Of a stretch of 64,000 bases of DNA, positions 11,428-63,315 are shown in pieces; position 1 is the first letter of the stretch, and the number at the start of each line of letters is the position of its first letter. Origin of the DNA: Pseudomonas putida. GTDB lineage: Bacteria > Pseudomonadota > Gammaproteobacteria > Pseudomonadales > Pseudomonadaceae. The notes beneath the pieces are model-generated. The model worked only from the letters and a program-made list of their open reading frames with translations, did no database searches and was not told the origin of the DNA. Location of the stretch: positions 2,418,001 to 2,482,000 of the forward strand of contig NZ_CP113097.1 in the NCBI RefSeq assembly GCF_026625125.1, written 5' to 3'. A program made the position numbers and the translations under genes.

Positions 11428-13910
11428 GCGGCGGCTCCAGCGCCCAGGTAGGCGGCTTCCAGTTGTGGGTCACCGCGAAGTTGCTCGGCGCTGCCCTGTT
11501 TGACGATGCGGCCGGTTTCCAGCACGTAGGCGCGGTCGGCCACCTGCAGTGCCAGGTTAGCCATCTGATCGACCAGCAGTAACGTCACGCCTTCGTCGCG
11601 CAGGGCGGCGAGGGCGTCGTACAGCTCGCCGATCATCGCCGGGGAGAGGCCCAGGGACGGCTCGTCCAGCAGCAGGATGCGTGGCTTGGCCATCAGCGCG
11701 CGGCCAATCGCGACCATCTGCTGTTCACCGCCCGAGAGCAGCCCGGCCGGGCTGTGGATGCGTTCGCGCAGGCGGGGGAAGCGCGTGAGGATCGCGGCGA
11801 TTTCGCCGTCGGCATCGACGGCATCCTGGCGCACGTTGGCCCCCAGCAGCAGGTTCTCGCGCACGCTCAACTGGCCGAACAGCTGCCGGCCTTCAGGGAC
11901 CAGGGCCAGGCCAAGGCGGGCGATCTGGCTGGCATCGAGGCTTTCGATGCTGCGGTTGTCCAGCACGATACTGCCGCCACGTGGCCGGTGCAGGCCGGCA
12001 AGGGCCTGCAGAATGCTCGATTTGCCGGCGCCATTGGCGCCCAGGATGGCGATCAGCTCACCCGGGTTGACCACCAGGTCGACAGCTTCGACCACTGGCG
12101 CCGCGCCATAGTCGATGCACAGGTCGCGCACGTGCAGCACGGCATCACGCGAGCCCGCCCAGGCCTGCGCGCGCGGCTGGGCCTGGTACTCGGTGCCCCC
12201 CAGGTACGCCGCAATCACCCGCGGGTCCGAGCGCACCTGTTCAGGGGTGCCCCAGGCGATCGGTTTGCCGGCGTCGAGCACCAGTAGCCTGTGCGACACG
12301 GCCATCACCAGCGGCATGTCGTGCTCGACCAGGATGATCGCCAGGTTGAAGGCGGCCAGGCGTTGCAGCAGCGTGGCCAGGCGGTCGGTGTCCTGCCGCC
12401 CAAGGCCCGCAGCCGGCTCGTCGAGCAGCAGCACCTGCGGCCGGCTGGCCAGCGCTCGGGCGATCTCGACCAAGCGGCGGTCGACGTGGGGCAGGTCATC
12501 GGCGGCGACGTGCAGGTTGCCGCGGTAGCCGACCAGCGCCAGCAACCCGATGGCCAAGGCCTTGCGTGTGGCTTGCTGGCACGGCCAGGGCCGTTCGATG
12601 GCACCTTGCTGAAAGGCCAGCAGCAGGTTCTCGAGCACGCTCAGCTCACCGAACAGCTGGGTGGTCTGGTACGTACGGGCGATACCGGCGCGCGCGATGC
12701 GCCAGGCCGGCTGCCCGGCCAGCTCCGCGCCCAGCTGTATCGAGCCGGTGTCGGGGCGGTAGAAACCACTGATCAGGTTGAGCACCGTGGATTTGCCCGC
12801 ACCATTGGGCCCGATCAGGCTGGTGATGCTGCCTGGTAAGGCCTGCAGGCTGACGTGCTGCGCGGCTTGCACACCCCCGAAACGGATGCCGATGCCCTCG
12901 ACCTTCAGCCCATGCCGCGCACCACCGGTGAAGAACGCCCGCAGCACCGCCGCATCCGGCTGTGCGGTGACCGGCTCGTGCCGCGGCCGCCAAAACCGCT
13001 TGGCGAGGCTGCCCAGCACACCGCGTGGTGCCGCCCACAGTACCGCCAGCAGCAAAACCGAGAACGCCAGCAGCCGGTACTCGGCAAAGTCGGCCAGCAG
13101 TTCAGGCAGCAGCACGATCACCAGTGCACCGAGCACCGGCCCGAACAGCATGCCGGCGCCACCGACGATCACCGCCAGGACGAACAGGATCGACTGCGAG
13201 AACGGGAACGCTGCCGGGTTGATGAACATCAGCACCGGCGCTACCAGCGCCCCGGCTGCGCCCGCCAGCCCTGCCGACAGGGCAAAGGCCAAGGTCCGCG
13301 TCTGCACCGGGTTGACCCCCAATGAACGGGCGGCGATCTCCGACGCCTTCACCGCCCGCATTGCCAGGCCCCAGCCGCTGCGCTGCAGGCTCCAGTAGAA
13401 CGCCAGCGCCGCCAGCATCAGCAGCACCGCAGCCAGTGCCAGCAGCAGGGCCGGGTCCAGCGTGCCGACTTCAGGCAGTGGAATGCCCATCAGGCCGTTG
13501 GCACCGCCAGTGATGCTGCGCCACTCGATCAGGCCGTTGTGCACCACCAGGGCAAAGGCAATGGTGATCATTGCCAGGTAAGGCCCGCTGACCCGTAGCG
13601 CCGGGATCGCCAGCAAGCCGCCCAACAGCGCGCAGCCAAGGCCGGCCAGGGGCAGGGCGCCCGACAGCGGCAGGCCGGCAAGTGTCAGCAGTGCCGACAG
13701 GTAGGCGCCGATGGCATAGAACGCGATGTGCCCGAAGGACATCTGCCCGGACAAACCGATCAGGATGTTCAGGCCCACGCCGACGGTGACCGCCAGCGCG
13801 TACAAGGTCAGGATCAACAGCCAGTAGCTGTCCAGGCCCAATGCCAGGCCAAGGCTGGCGACCCCGAACAGGGCCAGGCCGAGGGGGGCGAGTCGCTCGC
13901 GCATGGTCAT
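11424..13910 (-). CDS. Fused LivM-LivG-LivF ABC transporter protein
   Basis: 828 residues with three parts normally made separately. Residues 1-300 are a LivM-type permease (GLSGQMSFGHIAFYAIGAY, RVSGPYLAMITIAFALV, RAVKASEIAARSLGVN). Residues 335-575 are a LivG-type ATPase (Walker A GPNGAGKST at 367, Walker B VLLLDEP, EHD switch). Residues 590-828 are a LivF-type ATPase (Walker A GANGAGKSS at 624, LSGGEQQ signature, ILLLDEPSLGLSP). The signature of the first ATPase is degenerate, LPHVD (473-477) instead of an LSGGQ-type motif. The gene overlaps livH-like and amidohydrolase genes by 4 bases each. It should form an inner-membrane importer with the LivH-like permease and the binding protein upstream. 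Confidence 0.88.
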   Translation of the reverse strand: MTMRERLAPLGLALFGVASLGLALGLDSYWLLILTLYALAVTVGVGLNILIGLSGQMSFGHIAFYAIGAYLSALLTLAGLPLSGALPLAGLGCALLGGLLAIPALRVSGPYLAMITIAFALVVHNGLIEWRSITGGANGLMGIPLPEVGTLDPALLLALAAVLLMLAALAFYWSLQRSGWGLAMRAVKASEIAARSLGVNPVQTRTLAFALSAGLAGAAGALVAPVLMFINPAAFPFSQSILFVLAVIVGGAGMLFGPVLGALVIVLLPELLADFAEYRLLAFSVLLLAVLWAAPRGVLGSLAKRFWRPRHEPVTAQPDAAVLRAFFTGGARHGLKVEGIGIRFGGVQAAQHVSLQALPGSITSLIGPNGAGKSTVLNLISGFYRPDTGSIQLGAELAGQPAWRIARAGIARTYQTTQLFGELSVLENLLLAFQQGAIERPWPCQQATRKALAIGLLALVGYRGNLHVAADDLPHVDRRLVEIARALASRPQVLLLDEPAAGLGRQDTDRLATLLQRLAAFNLAIILVEHDMPLVMAVSHRLLVLDAGKPIAWGTPEQVRSDPRVIAAYLGGTEYQAQPRAQAWAGSRDAVLHVRDLCIDYGAAPVVEAVDLVVNPGELIAILGANGAGKSSILQALAGLHRPRGGSIVLDNRSIESLDASQIARLGLALVPEGRQLFGQLSVRENLLLGANVRQDAVDADGEIAAILTRFPRLRERIHSPAGLLSGGEQQMVAIGRALMAKPRILLLDEPSLGLSPAMIGELYDALAALRDEGVTLLLVDQMANLALQVADRAYVLETGRIVKQGSAEQLRGDPQLEAAYLGAGAAA

Positions 13911-14776
13911 ACCTTTACCCAGAGTTTGCGGCCGAACAGGCCGTCAGGACGTGCCGCGAGTACCACGATCACCAGTGCAAAGCACAGCAATTGCGTGAAC
14001 GCAGAGCCGAAATACAGCGTGACCACCGCCTCGAGCAGGCCAAACAGCAGGCCTGCCGCGAACACCCCACCCGCACTGGCGATGCCGCCGAGGATGGCCA
14101 CGGCGAAAGCCTTCAGGCCGAACAACGTGCCCATGTCGGCGTGCACGTTGTACAGCGGTGCGATCAGCAGGCCCGCCAGCGCCGCGAACACGGTCGACAG
14201 GGCGAAGGCCGCCGCCACCACGCGGTTCACGTCGATGCCCATCAGCCGGGCTGCCCGTGGGTTCTGCACGCAGGCTTCCAGGCGCAGGCCCAGCTGTGTG
14301 CGTCGGCGCACCCAGTAAAGCGCGGCCGCCACCGCCGCACCGGCCAGCGGAATGGCCAACTGCACGGCATTCAGGCTGCTGTCGCCCAGGTCCAGGCGCA
14401 GGCTGGTCAGGGCACTGCCGAACTGCCGTGGCTCCTTGCCGAAGGTGAACATCGCCAGGTTGTCCAGCAGCAGCCCGCCCGCCACGGTCGCCATCAGCCA
14501 GGCGTCCGAGCCACGGGCATGGAAGGGGCGCACCAGAAAACGCTCGATGGCCAGGCCCAGCACCGCGCACAGCAGCAGGGTAGTGGGCAGTGCCAGCCAC
14601 AACGGCCAGCCCCAGGTCACGGTCAGGCTGTAGCCAAGCACGGCGCCGACCATCATCGCGCTGCCCTGGGCGAAGTTGACCGTGCGCGACACGGCATAGG
14701 TGAGGTGAAAGCCCAGCGCCAGCAGCGCATACATGCTGCCCAGGCCCAGGCCGCTGACCAGTGCGGTGGTGATCAT
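13907..14776 (-). CDS. LivH-type ABC permease
   Basis: 289 residues, typical LivH length, with about eight hydrophobic segments and the family patterns LGLGSMYALLALGFHLTYAVSRTVNFAQGS near the N-terminus and GLRLEACVQNPRAARLMGIDVNRV in the cytoplasmic loop that contacts the ATPases. The C-terminal region has LGGIASAGGVFAAGLLFGLLEAVVTLYFGSAF. It partners the LivM part of the neighbouring fusion protein. The binding-protein gene ends 15 bases upstream. Confidence 0.9.
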   Translation of the reverse strand: MITTALVSGLGLGSMYALLALGFHLTYAVSRTVNFAQGSAMMVGAVLGYSLTVTWGWPLWLALPTTLLLCAVLGLAIERFLVRPFHARGSDAWLMATVAGGLLLDNLAMFTFGKEPRQFGSALTSLRLDLGDSSLNAVQLAIPLAGAAVAAALYWVRRRTQLGLRLEACVQNPRAARLMGIDVNRVVAAAFALSTVFAALAGLLIAPLYNVHADMGTLFGLKAFAVAILGGIASAGGVFAAGLLFGLLEAVVTLYFGSAFTQLLCFALVIVVLAARPDGLFGRKLWVKV

Positions 14777-14791
14777 GTCGAGGGCCTCCGC

Positions 14792-15964
14792 TCAGGGCGT
14801 CACGGGTACGATGGTGTCGCCATCGAAGCGGCTGAAGACATAGTCCTCAGGGCCCAGGGCGTCGTGGCGGTCAACACTGAACGGCTGCTGGTAGTGTTTG
14901 ATCAGCCCCTCGTAGTCGCTGATGGCATAGAACCCGTCACGCACCTTCGTGCCTTGGGTATCCTGGGCCTTGTCGATCGCCAGGGCCACCAGGTGCATGG
15001 CGTCGTAGGCGTTGGCGATGCCCACGGCGGGGGTCACGTCGGCCAGGGTCTTGACCTGCGGGTAACGCTGCTTGAGAGCGGCCAGCAAGGCATCGCCGCG
15101 GGCGCTGTTGTGGGCGCTGAAGACAAACGTCTGGATGAAGTGCACGCGCCCGGCGTCAGGCCCGGCCAGCTCGCCGAAGCGGCCGCCGGCCGGGCCCCAG
15201 TGCGACACCACCGGCACGTTCCAGCCCATCTGCTGGAGCGATTTGACCACCTGCGCCGAAGGCCCGACGTTGCCCACCAGCAGCAGGGTGTCGACGCCTG
15301 CGTTTTTCAGGCGGGTGAGTTGCGGCACCATGTCCAGGTCACTGTCCTCAAAGCGCTCGGCCGGCGCCTGGGCCATGTCGCGGCGGGCCATAGCGGCGTT
15401 TAGCCCTGCCAGGTTCGACTCGCCCCAAGGGTTATTGGCCAGGATCAGGCCCGGGCACTTCATGCCCTGGCGCAGGCCATAGGCGACCAGTGCTTCGTCC
15501 ACCTGTTCATCCACCGCCGACACGCGGAACACGTAGTTGTCCTTTGCGCCGTTCTCGGTGATTTTGGTGCCTGCCGCCCAGATCCCCATGAACGGCGTTT
15601 TCAGTTGGTTGGCCAACGGCACGATGGCCAGCGACACCGGGGTGTCGAGGCCGCCGAACAGCACGCTGACCTTTTCCCGCTGGATCAACTCGCGCGCCGC
15701 CAGCATGCCCTTGGCCGGGTTGCTCTCGTCATCGCGGCGCACCAGTTCCACCGGGCGGCCCAGCAGCCCGCCTTGGGCGTTGATCTCATCGATGGCCAGG
15801 GTCAGGCCCCGGGTCAGGGCCTCGCCGGACTTGGCAGACTGCCCCGACAACGCGGCCACCAGGCCCACCTTGATCGGCTCTGCAGCCTGTACCCAGCCCG
15901 TGCAGCAGGCCAGGGAAAAGGCTGCGCAGGGCAGCCAGCGACGTAGCAAGGAACCGCTGAACAT
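14792..15964 (-). CDS. Periplasmic binding protein of Liv-type ABC importer
   Basis: 390 residues with a signal peptide (LLRRWLPCAAFSLACCTGWVQA, cut before AEPIKVG). The mature part begins IKVGLVAALSGQSAKSGEALTRG, continues EINAQGGLLGRPVELVRRDDES and has VAPLANQLKTPF-like segments of the type I periplasmic receptor fold (Peripla_BP_6). It would capture the substrate for the LivH/LivMGF importer. Ligands in this family range from branched-chain amino acids to amides, urea and aromatic acids, so the ligand is open. It is the first gene of the minus-strand operon and has the paired palindromes 15 bases before its start. Confidence 0.88.
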   Translation of the reverse strand: MFSGSLLRRWLPCAAFSLACCTGWVQAAEPIKVGLVAALSGQSAKSGEALTRGLTLAIDEINAQGGLLGRPVELVRRDDESNPAKGMLAARELIQREKVSVLFGGLDTPVSLAIVPLANQLKTPFMGIWAAGTKITENGAKDNYVFRVSAVDEQVDEALVAYGLRQGMKCPGLILANNPWGESNLAGLNAAMARRDMAQAPAERFEDSDLDMVPQLTRLKNAGVDTLLLVGNVGPSAQVVKSLQQMGWNVPVVSHWGPAGGRFGELAGPDAGRVHFIQTFVFSAHNSARGDALLAALKQRYPQVKTLADVTPAVGIANAYDAMHLVALAIDKAQDTQGTKVRDGFYAISDYEGLIKHYQQPFSVDRHDALGPEDYVFSRFDGDTIVPVTP

Positions 15965-15978
15965 GGTTCGAACTCCTG

Positions 15979-16010
15979 ATTGCTAGCAATTTATAAAAAT
16001 GTGCTAGCAA
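15979..16010. promoter_or_regulatory. Paired TGCTAGCA palindromes, candidate GntR operator (site 2)
   Basis: ATTGCTAGCAAT (15979-15990) and TGCTAGCAA (16002-16010), with core centres 21 bases apart, lie between the divergent binding-protein gene (start 15964) and the SnoaL-like gene (start 16149). The arrangement copies that at 7869-7901, 8 kb away, tying both ends of the locus into one regulon. Confidence 0.65.
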
Positions 16011-16148
16011 AACAGGTGCCATTTGGAAAATACTTCGGGCACCCCGTGTTTTGGGGCTTGCGCCTTCGGCTTCAGCGCCCTCGCGTGCACTGGATCAAGG
16101 CATCGCTCGGGGCCTGCGCCCCGTTCTGGACACCCTCGGAGACTTGCA

Positions 16149-16547
16149 ATGACCGAAAGCAACAGCGCCGTACAGATCGTTCGCGACTTCCTCGCTGCTT
16201 CCATGGCCCCCGACCCGGTGCGCGCTGCCACGTTCATGAGCGACGACGTGCGCATTACCTTTACCGGCGGCCGCGCGATGCCCACCCCGGCCGATATCAC
16301 CGCGTTCAATGGCGCGCGTTACACCTGGGTGAAGAAGCAGCTGGGGCAGTTCGACTGGTGTGAGCGCGAGGACCACACCGTGGTGTATTCCAATGGCACC
16401 CTGTACGGGCAGTGGCCGGATGGCCGCAGCTTTTCCGGCAACCGTTACCTGGACCGTTTCGAAGTGAAGGCGGGCAAGATCGTGCGCATGGATGTGTGGA
16501 ACGACAGCGCCGAATGGATGCTGGCGCCGGAGATCGGCAAGGCCTGA
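16149..16547 (+). CDS. SnoaL-like / NTF2-fold protein
   Basis: 132 residues: MTESNSAVQIVRDFLAASMA, then VRITFTGGRAMPTPADITAFNG and DRSFSGNRYLDRFEVKAGKI-like strands, ending DVWNDSAEWML. This is the cone-shaped NTF2/SnoaL fold used by small isomerases, cyclases and hydrolases. The start at 16149 has GGAG seven bases before it; longer readings upstream lack support. It is divergent from the ABC importer and shares its operator region, so it probably acts on the same substrate or product. Its reaction is unknown. Confidence 0.75.
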   Translation: MTESNSAVQIVRDFLAASMAPDPVRAATFMSDDVRITFTGGRAMPTPADITAFNGARYTWVKKQLGQFDWCEREDHTVVYSNGTLYGQWPDGRSFSGNRYLDRFEVKAGKIVRMDVWNDSAEWMLAPEIGKA

Positions 16548-16571
16548 GCGGGTCAGTTGCGGTGTGGCCTG

Positions 16572-16594
16572 AGGTATCGCCGTTGGCGATACCT
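16572..16594. promoter_or_regulatory. LysR-type operator candidate, perfect 23-bp inverted repeat (site A)
   Basis: AGGTATCGC and GCGATACCT flank 5 bases; including the inner pair the arms are 10 bases and perfect. It lies 52 bases before the start of the LysR gene at 16647. Related copies are at 20767, 21883 and 23336. Position and repetition support a regulator site. Confidence 0.65.
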
Positions 16595-16646
16595 GGTAGC
16601 GCGAAACCCGCACCGTGAGCGCACCGCTGTCGGGTATAAGTTGCCC

Positions 16647-17576
16647 ATGCGCTACCGACGTCTCGATTTGAACCTGCTGGTCGCCCTGGATGTGCTGCTC
16701 GATGAGTGCAGCGTCAGCCGGGCGGCGCAGCGCCTCAACCTTGGCCAGTCTGCCACCAGCGCTGCGCTGGGGCGCCTGCGCGAGCACTTTCAGGACCCCC
16801 TGCTGATCCCCCTCGGGCGCGGCCTTGAGCCCAGTGCCCTGGCGCGGCAGTTGGCACCCAAGGTGCGGGAGGCGCTGAGCTTGGTCGGGGAGGTGGTCGA
16901 GACGTCCCTGGGCTTCGATCCCGGCCGCTGTGAGCGGCGCTTCACCCTGGTGGCATCGGACTATGTGGCGGCCACTGTCATGCCTGCCCTCAGCCGTGTG
17001 CTGGACCGCGTGGCCCCCGGTATCTCGCTGGTGGTTCGCGACCTGCCGGTGTCGCGTGACGGTGACGTGGTGGCCGAGGCCCTGGACTACCGCCGTAGCG
17101 ATCTGGTGATCGTGCCTCAGCGGCGCATCAACCTGCGCTATCCCCACTCAGTGTTGCTCGAAGATGAGCTGTGCTGCGTTGTGTGTGCGCACGAAGCGGC
17201 TTACCAGTCGGGCCTTGGCCTGGCTCAGTTCTGTGCGGCCGCGCATGTCGTGCGCGAGTTCACCGATGGCCAAAACCTCTCGGTCGACACCCAGCACCTG
17301 CGCGATATCGGCATCGAGCGGCGTGTGGCCGTGGCGGTGCCAAGCTTCGCGCTGATGGGCGACTTCGTCAGCGGTACGCCGCGCATCGCGACGTTGTTCC
17401 GGCGCCAGGCCCAAGCGCTGGCGCGTCATCATGCGCTTCGGGTACTGCCTTCGCCCATCGCCTTCCCGATGGTTGCGCAAGTGCTGCAGTGGCACCCGCA
17501 GCAAGCATCCGACCCGGCCCTGGGCTGGCTCCGGCAGGTGCTCACCGAGCAGGCGGCGGGGGTCGATCACGCCTGA
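16647..17576 (+). CDS. LysR family regulator (NodD-like)
   Basis: 309 residues from the ATG at 16647. The N-terminal winged helix starts RYRRLDLNLLVALDVLLDECSVSRAAQRLNLGQSATSAALGRLRE, which is the NodD/NahR-type variant of LysR regulators that often respond to aromatic compounds. The rest is the two-lobed effector domain. It is homologous over its length to the regulator at 20826-21764. The 3' end overlaps the convergent GlcG-like gene by 10 bases. A perfect inverted repeat sits just upstream and may mediate autoregulation. Confidence 0.85.
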   Translation: MRYRRLDLNLLVALDVLLDECSVSRAAQRLNLGQSATSAALGRLREHFQDPLLIPLGRGLEPSALARQLAPKVREALSLVGEVVETSLGFDPGRCERRFTLVASDYVAATVMPALSRVLDRVAPGISLVVRDLPVSRDGDVVAEALDYRRSDLVIVPQRRINLRYPHSVLLEDELCCVVCAHEAAYQSGLGLAQFCAAAHVVREFTDGQNLSVDTQHLRDIGIERRVAVAVPSFALMGDFVSGTPRIATLFRRQAQALARHHALRVLPSPIAFPMVAQVLQWHPQQASDPALGWLRQVLTEQAAGVDHA

Positions 17577-60087: not shown

Positions 60088-60331
60088 AAACCAACTTCAA
60101 GCTGTGGTGGGTGGTGTGCCGGTTCCGCTGAAGCGGCGAGGGCGATTATGGCAAAAGTTCTAGGCTCTGTTGAAAACCTTTGGAACTCAGAGCCTGTGGA
60201 AGCCTGATTTTCCCTAGAGTTTTCGCTTTTTTTGGCGAAGGATTCTGCCATGTCCAAGTGGTACGAATTTTCCGGCACAGAATGGGAAACAGCCGCAGAC
60301 CTCTTCACCGCCCATCGATGTACAAGAACCC
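60088..60331. other. Intergenic region before the duplicated island
   Basis: About 240 bases between the TetR start and the first repeat copy. The near end should hold the TetR promoter. Short readable frames exist (for example from 60250) but show no known family; part may be the remainder of a transposase 5' region. Confidence 0.4.
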
Positions 60332-60640
60332 CAAGCGTTGCCGCTGGTTCCTGGCCGACAGAGGCTGTGACGCAGAATCCTTGCGGCAATACCCCTATCG
60401 CTAGCGGATGCAGCCGGTGATTGCACTGCGTGACATGAAGCGCAAACCGAAGCCGGGATTACCGCGTCTTTTGCCAAGCCCAATTATCGGCAGCGGAACG
60501 CGATCGAACGGCTGTTTGGTTGGTGTAAGGAGCACCGCCAGGGTACACGCCATTGCACGCTGGCAAGCGCTTCGCTGCGATGGTCGCGCTGGCTTGCTGG
60601 CGGCGGTATTTACGACATTGATTTCGTATAGTGCCTAAAG
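60332..60640 (+). mobile_element. IS5-type transposase 3' remnant, copy 1
   Basis: Broken frames read KRCRWFLADRGCDAESLRQ, then MQPVIALRDMKRKPKPG, then (in another frame) NYRQRNAIERLFGWCKEHR. Together they match the C-terminal catalytic part of IS5-family transposases (RGYDA, and YRQRN-IERLFGWLK in relatives). Stops and frame changes show it is inactive. No complete element or terminal inverted repeat was found. Confidence 0.75.
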
Positions 60641-60975
60641 CCTCTACGTTCGACGAAGAATGGTTGGACAGTAATTTTCCCGCCTTCCTTTGTCGAGACC
60701 GCCCGGATCAGCACAAGCAGCAGGAGCGCCTGAAGAGCAGTTGAGTGTGATTGATGGGGATGTGGTACTGACAGAGGTTAAAGCAGTTATTTCGCGCCGG
60801 CACGTGTAGCAGTAAAAAATTAAAAAACGCATCAATTTTAGTGCGTGAAGCCAAGCAAAACGCAAGATGTGCGATGATTTGATTGGTGGCACAGGGTGCT
60901 ATCATTCGGCAATACCATTAATAGATAAAGGTGCGATCATTTACCGAAAGCACCCACCTCACTTTAAGCAAACAA
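60641..60975. other. Spacer between transposase remnant and profilin gene, copy 1
   Basis: About 335 bases, close to its counterpart at 62190-62529. A 37-codon frame (GTG 60631 to TGA 60744; DEEWLDSNFPAFLCRDRPDQ) is kept in both copies, but nothing shows it is expressed. The second half is A/T-rich. It lies downstream of the minus-strand profilin-like gene. Confidence 0.4.
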
Positions 60976-61365
60976 TCAATAACCCAGCTCAATCAACTCG
61001 TCAGCTAATTTCTCGACAGCAGACGCACACTCAACTAGGGACATCGAGTCATTATGAAAACCAACAACAATCGACTGTTTAGTTTTTGCAATAACAATTC
61101 CGTGACCGCCCCGTCGTCCCAGTATTTTTTTATCGGATATCGATAACACAACATATTTCTTGCCATCCACGGTAATGCCTGTTTTCAAAAGCTCCCCCGA
61201 ATCCAAAATCCCTGCGAGTACGTCGGCTGCTGGCTTTATTTGGTCGGGGGCGATACTTAGTCCGGGCGAGGATACCCACGCCTTTCCATTCAAATCTAGG
61301 ATTGCTCCTTGAGACACAAAGCCAGTTCCCACCAGGTAGTCGTCAATATAAGGTTGCAAACTCAT
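60976..61365 (-). CDS. Profilin-like protein, copy 1
   Basis: 129 residues from the ATG at 61365, with AAAGGT before it. The sequence follows profilin from end to end: MSLQPYIDDYLV, GAILDLNGKAWVSSPG, KTGITVDGKKYVV, GRRGGHGIVIAKTKQSIVVG and VEKLADELIELGY. Plant profilins show the same pattern (MSWQ-YVDDHL, AAIIG-DGSVWAQS, KYMVIQGE, IRGKKG-GGITIKKT, VERLGDYLIEQGY). Of the poly-proline-binding aromatics, Tyr6, Trp30 and the terminal Tyr are kept but Trp3 is Leu. Profilins bind actin and proline-rich peptides in eukaryotes; here a bacterial partner is unknown. It lies 78 bases downstream of the surface-protein tail on the same strand. Confidence 0.85.
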   Translation of the reverse strand: MSLQPYIDDYLVGTGFVSQGAILDLNGKAWVSSPGLSIAPDQIKPAADVLAGILDSGELLKTGITVDGKKYVVLSISDKKILGRRGGHGIVIAKTKQSIVVGFHNDSMSLVECASAVEKLADELIELGY

Positions 61366-61443
61366 AATTTTACCTTTCGAGCAGTGGTTTAATAAACGGG
61401 CATGAGTCGGAATGGAAGATGTGGCCAACTCATACGGTCAATT

Positions 61444-61875
61444 TTACATAGGGTTCGCTTCATTACGAACAGCAAGCTGCACGTATGAATAACACGCTGC
61501 GGCCGAGTATTGGCTGGCGCTGCCTCGATGCACTCCTAGTTTCACGAACGTTATCGAAAACGAATCCGAACGGAACGCACCATCAGTAAAGACCTCTTTG
61601 TAAGTTTTCATCGTTCGGCTCACTCTCCCAGCCCATACGCGACCCATATTTGGGGTATTCAATAAAAACCACAACTGGTAAAAATAATAGGTGTACCACC
61701 GATTTTTCTGAATAGGTGTTTGAGCCCGCCACGTGCAACGCTCGGTCGTACTCGGTTTGACGACGAAATTCACATGGTCAGTGACGCCTGTGGCATCCAA
61801 CTCCACTTCACCCTCTTGGTGGTAATGCCAGCGACATCTGCCTTGACCGTGTCCACATCACTCCGGATCGAGGTA
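61444..61875 (-). pseudogene. C-terminal tail of an Ig-like (BIG1-type) surface protein, copy 1
   Basis: The long open part (61444-61806) reads EVELDATGVTDHVNFVVKP, then TTERCTWRAQTPIQKNRWYT and a unique tail of about 100 residues ending LAVRNEANPM. Just upstream, in another frame, is DTVKADVAGITTKRV; one missing base after this would join the two into the end of a bacterial Ig-like domain such as those of intimin/invasin-type adhesins. So this seems to be the 3' end of a large surface-protein gene, cut off near 61880 by the transposase remnant. The tail itself resembles nothing I know: aromatic-rich, with YTYYFYQLWFLL and SASQYSAAACYSYVQLAVR. Confidence 0.55.
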
Positions 61876-61882
61876 GGCCACG

Positions 61883-62190
61883 CAAGCGCTGCCGCTGACG
61901 CCTGGCCGGCAAAGGTTATGGCGCAGAATCCTTGCGACACCACTGCGACCGCTATCGGAGGCAGCGGGGCATGGTGCTGCGTGACGTGAAGCGCAAACCG
62001 AAGCTGGGATTCTACGCCTTTTCGCCGAGCCCAATTATCGGCAGCGGAACTCTATCGAACGGCTGTTTGGTTAGTTTAAGGAGCACCGCCTGGGTACACG
62101 CCATTGCACGCCGGCAACAGCTTCGCTGCGATGGTCGCGCTGGCTTGCTGGCGGCGGTGTTTACGACATTGATTTCGTATAGTGCCTAAG
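61883..62190 (+). mobile_element. IS5-type transposase 3' remnant, copy 2
   Basis: The same transposase segments as copy 1 in broken frames, including GMVLRDVKRKPKLGF and the NYRQRN-IERLFG stretch, with stops and shifts. No terminal inverted repeats were recognised. It interrupts the upstream part of the Ig-like surface-protein remnant of copy 1. Confidence 0.75.
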
Positions 62191-62529
62191 GCCTCTACGT
62201 CCGACGAAGAATGGTTGGACAGTAATTTTCCCGACTTCCTTTGTCGAGACCGCCCGGATCAGCACAAACAGCAGGAGCGCCTGAAAAGCAGTTGAGTGTG
62301 ATTGATGGGGATGTGGTACTGACAGAGCTTAAAGCAGTTATGACGCGCCGGCACGTGTAGCAGTAAAAAATTAAAAAGCGCATCAATTTTTGTGCGTGAA
62401 GCCAAGCAAAGTGCAAGATGTGCGATGATTTGATTGGTAGTACAGGGTGTCATCATTCGGCAATACTATTAACAGAAAAAAAGGTTGCGATCACTCACCG
62501 AAAGCAACCCCCTCACTTAAGAAACATAA
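62191..62529. other. Spacer between transposase remnant and profilin gene, copy 2
   Basis: About 340 bases, nearly identical to 60641-60975 apart from scattered substitutions. The 37-codon frame is again open (62182-62295). No other feature is seen. Confidence 0.4.
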
Positions 62530-62922
62530 TCAATAACCAAGCTCAATCAACTCGTCAGCTAGTTTCTCGACAGCAGATGCACACTTACCTGGCGCCATCG
62601 AGTCATAATGGAAACCTACAATAATCGAATGTTTAGTTTTTGTAATAACAATTCCGTCGCCGTACCCTCGTCCCGTTATTATTTTTGAATCGGGTGGCGA
62701 TACCACAAGATATTTCTTGAAATTCACAGTAAGACCTTTTTTCAAAAGCTCCCCCAAATCCAAAATCCCTGCGAGTCCGTCTGCTACTGGCTTTATTTGG
62801 TCGGGGGCGATACATAGTCCGGGCGAGGATGCCCACGTACTTCCATCCAAACCTAGGATTGCTCCTTGAGACACAAAACCAGTTCCTACCAGGTTGTTGT
62901 CAACATAAGCTTGCCAACTCAT
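62530..62922 (-). CDS. Profilin-like protein, copy 2
   Basis: 130 residues from the ATG at 62922, with AAGGTG before it. It is even closer to eukaryotic profilin than copy 1: MSWQAYVDNNLV, GAILGLDGSTWASSPG, KKGLTVNFKKYLVV, GRGYGDGIVITKTKHSIIVGF, MAPGKCASAVEKLADELIELGY. The aromatic cluster that holds poly-proline in profilins is complete (Trp3, Tyr6, Trp30, Tyr130). By eye the two copies differ at about 36 of 130 positions, with one single-residue gap, and both frames are intact, which suggests both proteins are kept functional. No actin-like partner is encoded in this window. Confidence 0.87.
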   Translation of the reverse strand: MSWQAYVDNNLVGTGFVSQGAILGLDGSTWASSPGLCIAPDQIKPVADGLAGILDLGELLKKGLTVNFKKYLVVSPPDSKIITGRGYGDGIVITKTKHSIIVGFHYDSMAPGKCASAVEKLADELIELGY

Positions 62923-63001
62923 AATTGCACCTTATCAAGCAGAGGTTAAATAAACGGGCATGAGTCGGAATGGAAAATTTGGCCAACTCATACGGTTAAT
63001 T

Positions 63002-63310
63002 TTACATAGGGTACACTTCATCACGAACAGCAAGCTGCACGTATGAATAACACGCTGCGGCCGAGTATTGGCTGGCGCTACCTCGATACACTCCTAGTGT
63101 CACGAACGCTATCGCAAACGAATCCGAACGGAACGTACCATCAGTAAAGACCTCTTTGTAAGCTTTCGTTGTTCGGCTCACTCTCCCAGCCCATACGCGA
63201 CCCATATTTGGGGTATTCAATAAAAATCACAACTGGTAAAAATAATAGGTGTACCCACCCATTTTTCGCATATGAGTATGAACCTGCCACGTGCAGCGCT
63301 CGGTCGTATT
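63002..63310 (-). pseudogene. Tail of the surface protein, copy 2, with nonsense mutation
   Basis: The same tail as copy 1: TTERCTWQVHTHMRKMGGYTYYFYQL, then a TGA stop at 63229-63227, then FLLNTPNMGRVWAGRVSRTTKAYKEVF to LAVRDEVYPM. Copy 1 has TGG (Trp) where the stop lies, so one base change broke it. Nothing of the Ig-like part is left: the segment starts at the MATE gene end. A restart at an internal codon could give a 72-residue fragment, but no good ribosome site is seen. Confidence 0.6.
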
Positions 63311-63315
63311 CGTGC

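Follow-up and report, generated by a model that had tools for sequence, protein, structure and literature searches.

Two eukaryote-type profilin genes, duplicated in tandem on an insert of foreign composition in a Pseudomonas putida chromosome

What are two genes resembling profilin doing in the chromosome of Pseudomonas putida, and is either of them at work there? The pair lies in the stretch of 64,000 nucleotides analysed here (the window), part of a genome assembled as a single contig of 5.86 Mb. A sequence-only reading of the window had recognised two profilin genes in a bacterial chromosome and had named an HMM search and structure prediction as checks; both were run, the latter on copy 2, and the identification stands. 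Specifically, i) both copies score far above the 25 bit cut-off of the Pfam profilin model PF00235 (Table 1), with model positions 1-127 of 127 aligned, and no other Pfam family exceeded its cut-off in either copy; ii) the predicted model of copy 2 has the profilin fold; and iii) in a Foldseek search with that model, the best 50 of 122 matches (E <=0.001) were all profilins or profilin-containing fusions. A Roadblock-like or other fold was set aside, as the listed matches were all profilin and Pfam offered no rival family, although absence of other folds from such a list does not amount to exclusion. We conclude that both genes encode genuine eukaryote-type profilins. They resemble the Acanthamoeba, fungal, and plant members of PF00235 in full-length HMM match and predicted fold, but differ in residing in a bacterial chromosome and in having changed strongly conserved family columns (17 of 48 in copy 1, 13 of 48 in copy 2); copy 2 is 50-51% identical to its two nearest database sequences.

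Table 1. Features of the profilin locus, in window coordinates.
Feature	Coordinates	Strand	Remarks
Duplicated unit 1	60332..61754		transposase remnant + flank + copy 1 + tail ORF
Transposase remnant, unit 1	60332..60640	+	C-terminal, frameshifted; based on reading frames
Profilin copy 1	60976..61365	-	129 aa; PF00235 118.4 bits
Tail ORF	61444..61767	-	upstream of profilin copy 1
Duplicated unit 2	61883..63312		transposase remnant + flank + copy 2 + tail remnant
Transposase remnant, unit 2	61883..62189	+	counterpart of unit 1 remnant
Profilin copy 2	62530..62922	-	130 aa; PF00235 120.6 bits
Tail remnant	63002..63220	-	upstream of copy 2; in-frame stop breaks the longer frame of unit 1

The two genes were evidently made by a 1.43 kb tandem duplication, to judge from units that are 89% identical (1276 of 1434 columns in the BLAST alignment). 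Each unit includes a transposase remnant, which we take to be of IS5 type by its motifs; the two remnants are 87% identical, and have DNA relatives at 64-81% identity in genomes of the same genus. The profilin pair sits on a small insert of foreign composition carrying these remnants: the insert is AT-rich (40-59% GC in 300-base windows versus 58-69% on both sides), and GC3 is 0.45 in copy 1 and 0.39 in copy 2. To the left are genes for a TetR-type regulator and a GH3-type enzyme (names assigned by eye), and to the right a MatE-like transporter of 471 aa in full, whose window part scores 24.6 bits, slightly below the Pfam cut-off of 24.9. An inverted repeat, GGCTCTG ... CAGAGCC, was seen by eye near the left edge of the insert (60163-60194) and could be an insertion-element end. 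Reading of the surrounding genes by eye revealed no partner gene or recognisable effector cluster; no RNA family reached its gathering threshold in the region; and the 4 promoter-like and 4 terminator-like sites are matched in number by shuffled sequence. In an empty-site comparison, which was without a positive control, the right flank was matched in 0 of 6 genomes including one of the same species; the left flank, part of the regulator gene, matches several genomes of the genus. Assembly contamination is unlikely: the genome is a single contig, the flanking genes are of bacterial type, and the same proteins are also listed from a second contig; plasmid carriage of the locus was rejected, the plasmid search having given no near DNA match.

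The earlier reading had also held that profilin is not a normal bacterial gene, and had suggested searching Pseudomonas genomes for homologues. The Pfam model gave matches at E <=0.001 in 7 of 398 Pseudomonas genomes; its cut-off was exceeded in 4 of 398, our own included, the other three scoring 102.6 bits (G204), 58.4 bits (G235), and 50.7 bits (G096). Three weaker hits (G013, G392, and G026; 21-22 bits, below the cut-off) were dropped; by reading, two of them coincide, in frame, with OmpA-like proteins, and the third is antisense to a dehydrogenase-like gene. No genome but ours matched in the samples of the order (1 of 390; 0 of 389 others) and the phylum (1 of 398; 0 of 397 others), and the Pfam model found no profilin in the listed genome of the same species, G215. 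For the predicted structure of the G096 protein (mean pLDDT 83.5), the top Foldseek match is Acanthamoeba profilin (E 2.1e-8).

A pattern scan of GTDB species genomes, which detects close relatives only, yielded 2 confirmed stretches of 467, one in a Thiodictyon MAG and one in Streptomyces. The Thiodictyon profilin (L009:10001-10378) is nearly canonical, scoring 164 bits with the Pfam model and 180 bits with the homologue HMM, and its contig neighbours look bacterial by eye. Streptomyces sp. CB00455 (L010, G1139:C10:21566-21932) carries two copies separated by about 8 kb, of which one contains an in-frame stop and the other is split, which suggests that they are in decay. Among plasmids, relatives were found in three streptomycete records, two of them from one strain and one annotated 'profilin'; the streptomycete profilins include broken or truncated examples. 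Carriage by phages or viruses was rejected, as none of 62 pattern matches in viral contigs was confirmed and 50,697 phage records held no relative. The gene is indeed rare in bacteria, although not without precedent, since Microcystis has PfnM (PMC3254629) and database entries named 'profilin' exist in Pseudomonas and Streptomyces. Our literature searches, made in a library of mainly open-access papers and partly swamped by 'profiling', listed nothing on Pseudomonas profilins as judged from titles and the openings of abstracts.

Where did the genes come from? In a tree of 70 rows and 126 columns, the two copies join at 100/100 but have no supported place among the 62 other rows, and the data neither establish nor reject a single Pseudomonas profilin clade (AU p 0.53). 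The shortest tree paths from the copies lead to unnamed database sequences. The nearest profilins by structure and by PDB sequence search are those of Acanthamoeba, and identity is 35-41% to amoebal and fungal profilins versus about 16% to the Asgard profilins of Loki and Odin. From rarity in bacteria, foreign composition, and greater closeness to eukaryotic than to Asgard profilins we infer a microbial-eukaryote donor; the genes were very probably acquired horizontally.

Eukaryotic actin was found in none of the four profilin-bearing Pseudomonas genomes searched (our own, G204, G235, and G096). The Actin family model gives one match in each, at 28-35 bits against a cut-off of 27; the sole match in our genome (34.6 bits) is MreB-like and distant from the profilins, and the model also matches 6 of 14 ordinary control genomes. 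We have taken these matches as MreB. The other Pseudomonas profilins (P0081, P0080, and P0082) are likewise single-domain and from the same genus, with no eukaryotic actin found in G204, G235, or G096, but are only 18-30% identical to copy 2 and lie at separate loci. According to PMC3254629, Microcystis aeruginosa PfnM is a eukaryote-type profilin located on a genomic island, encoded beside the actin ActM, given as 84% identical to eukaryotic profilin, and called in 2012 the only known prokaryotic profilin. The window copies resemble PfnM in being eukaryote-type profilins very probably gained by a bacterium, but differ from PfnM/ActM in being more diverged and duplicated, with no eukaryotic actin found. 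The Asgard profilins (Loki, Odin, and Heimdall) described in PMC8410842 belong to archaea with their own actin homologues, whereas the window profilins are bacterial and no eukaryotic actin was found with them.

The explanation we favour, with middling confidence, is that these are transferred eukaryote-type profilins, duplicated, that work on eukaryotic partners. One profilin gene would have arrived by horizontal transfer from a microbial eukaryote, amoebae or fungi being the nearest named matches, and would have duplicated later; the proteins would most likely meet eukaryotic partners (actin monomer or proline-rich actin regulators) rather than bacterial actin, in an organism that would be an amoeba, fungus, or plant. 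The window profilins may have a host-directed function. A role against eukaryotic partners is our leading functional guess, with neutral passage as a close rival for this particular strain.

We take the poly-proline site of profilin to comprise the N-terminal helix, W3, Y6, W30, and the C-terminal aromatics. Copy 1 departs from the family at the conserved columns W3L, A5P, A31V, and Y124E. Copy 2 had been said to keep all the poly-proline aromatics; it does retain W3, Y6, W30, and Y130, but the Tyr of the C-terminal helix, invariant in homologues, is E124 in both copies. In the strand 5 region, the family S-I/V-Y-G-K-K appears as K-I-I-T-G-R in copy 2 and K-I-L-G-R-R in copy 1. PMC9527652 reports that poly-proline binding is disrupted when the corresponding Trp is changed; that mammalian profilin contacts actin or lipid through Phe59, Arg74, Arg88, Lys90, His119, and Lys125; and that a poxvirus profilin with the N-terminal Trp kept fails to bind poly-proline. 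Because of this last counterexample, a kept N-terminal Trp is no proof of proline binding.

To apportion change since the duplication, each difference was credited to whichever copy has the residue less frequent among 56 homologues (60 minus 4 dropped for length). Overall change is about equal, with 19 differences assigned to copy 1, 14 to copy 2, and 1 tie (19 versus 14, p 0.49). Its distribution is not: residues 1-35 hold 10 of 19 copy 1 changes (W3L, A5P, V7I, N9D, N10Y, G24D, D26N, S28K, T29A, and A31V) versus 0 of 14 copy 2 changes (Fisher p 0.0014), and residues 57-106 hold 4 of 19 versus 12 of 14 (Fisher p 0.0004), placing the majority of post-duplication changes in copy 2 within strands 4-6. 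The reciprocal pattern has p 0.0145 once all windows are scanned, and the same split appears with the nearest sequences as outgroup, at 10 of 14 versus 0 of 9 (p 0.0016; 12 sites unresolved) and, in a second count, at 10 of 13 versus 0 of 9 (p 0.0005; 13 sites unresolved). We treat the pattern as a lead, because it was noticed before testing and because ancestral states are inferred from residue frequencies. Copy 2 may have preserved the proline-peptide face for the most part and altered strands 4-6 while copy 1 did the opposite; copy 1 has probably lost its proline face, and an altered actin face in copy 2, where the strand 4-6 region lies near actin contacts, is a lead. A bolder proposition, which we consider unlikely as a whole, is that the duplicates have split the classic functions of profilin, copy 2 binding proline peptides while its actin face is degraded and copy 1 being an actin-face protein whose proline site is lost, and that the actin-less Pseudomonas profilins form a real eukaryote-mimicking class, its probable target being a eukaryotic host or predator; if true, nature would have run a separation-of-function experiment on profilin.

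A possibility to be taken seriously, although we lean against it, is that the pair is passenger DNA: an acquired profilin carried with an insertion element, duplicated, and drifting neutrally, its frames still open for lack of time. Comparison of the copies shows amino acid changes at 35 of 129 codons and purely synonymous changes at 13; dN/dS is 0.82 (NG86; bootstrap interval 0.49-1.63), and 0.71, 1.01, and 1.67 by three other methods. Family variability at the differing sites (34 of 126 columns) does not exceed that at the remaining sites (mean entropy 1.41 versus 1.39, p 0.46). By contrast, 5 of 5 eukaryote-type control pairs of 61-92% identity (two of them at 61% and 75%) concentrate differences at variable sites (p <=0.0083), with the reservation that these pairs are part of the reference set, which biases the test mildly. 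Differences between copy 2 and the Thiodictyon protein likewise concentrate at variable sites, as do those in 3 of 3 pairs among the Pseudomonas akapageensis profilin and its relatives P0083 and P0084, constrained like other profilins (both p <=0.0011); copy 2 and the P. akapageensis-type and Thiodictyon proteins lie outside the reference set. Constraint was undetected between the G096 and P. tructae profilins (12 differences, p 0.44).

Also favouring passenger DNA, coding divergence (51/390) equals that of the dead transposase remnant (40/308, p 1.0), profilin is absent from G215, and streptomycete profilins are in part broken or truncated, which would fit with such genes often being passengers. 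The argument that two diverged, intact copies suggest function is weakened by the entropy and dN/dS results, and also by neutral simulation: with 56 substitutions the open frame was retained in 13-14% of cases, so intactness alone is weak evidence. None of 1000 simulated copies, in either direction, reached the score of the real other copy against the homologue HMM, but as the simulation starts from one copy rather than the common ancestor, these scores were not used as a measure of constraint. Speaking against passenger DNA, both frames are open, both ribosome-binding sequences are retained, and the net gap is 3 bases, in frame; the changes are distributed reciprocally rather than randomly; and the CDS has diverged more (51/390) than the 3′ flank plus tail (44/644, p 0.001; the 78 bases immediately upstream of the CDS, with 8/78 differing, were excluded), which simple drift does not predict. 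What gaps say about frame retention depends on the aligner: about ten small gaps lie outside the CDS in the BLAST alignment (counted by eye), but a MAFFT alignment has two, one of them frameshifting, and the probability of seeing no frameshift in the CDS is then 0.69.

Recruitment of the profilin fold to bacterial housekeeping, binding a bacterial proline-rich protein or MreB, seems improbable to us. In its favour, the P. akapageensis profilin (P0081, in G204; L003:1489-1866) and its environmental relatives P0083 and P0084 combine ordinary constraint with retention of W3, Y6, W30, Y124, and an aromatic C-terminus, while departing from eukaryotes in the strand-5 motif, and the genes around that of P. 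akapageensis look ordinary (names by eye). On the whole, the stronger case for profilin function in bacteria is made by the P. akapageensis type rather than by the window copies. But profilins are rare and scattered over the genus, order, and phylum samples, and we know of no bacterial profilin partner. The remaining Pseudomonas examples are P0080 of Pseudomonas sp. LS-2 (G235) and P0082 of P. tructae, which is 90% identical to the G096 profilin. The G096 gene (L013:12739-13101) lies about 130 bases downstream, on the same strand, of two overlapping ORFs (13232-17072) in which leucine-rich repeats and a ToxA_N domain (dermonecrotic toxin, N-terminal; 113 bits) are recognised.

A last suggestion of the sequence-only reading, that the profilins are immunity or chaperone proteins for the neighbouring tail, is very improbable and finds its sole support in adjacency in both units, since the tail ORF (0 matches in Pfam, NCBIfam, plasmids, and the protein database) has no relatives, is interrupted in unit 2, and shows no coding constraint between units (13 differences, dN 0.061 > dS 0.039), so that it is probably non-coding or a dead gene.

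What matters here is the presence of profilins in Pseudomonas genomes without detectable eukaryotic actin (4 of 4), one type of which shows ordinary profilin constraint, and in other bacteria as well, raising the testable question of what profilin does where actin is missing. Should these profilins be passengers, they would record transfer from eukaryotes to bacteria as it happens; should they act on neighbouring eukaryotes, as we favour for the window copies, Pseudomonas would be employing an actin regulator taken from elsewhere.
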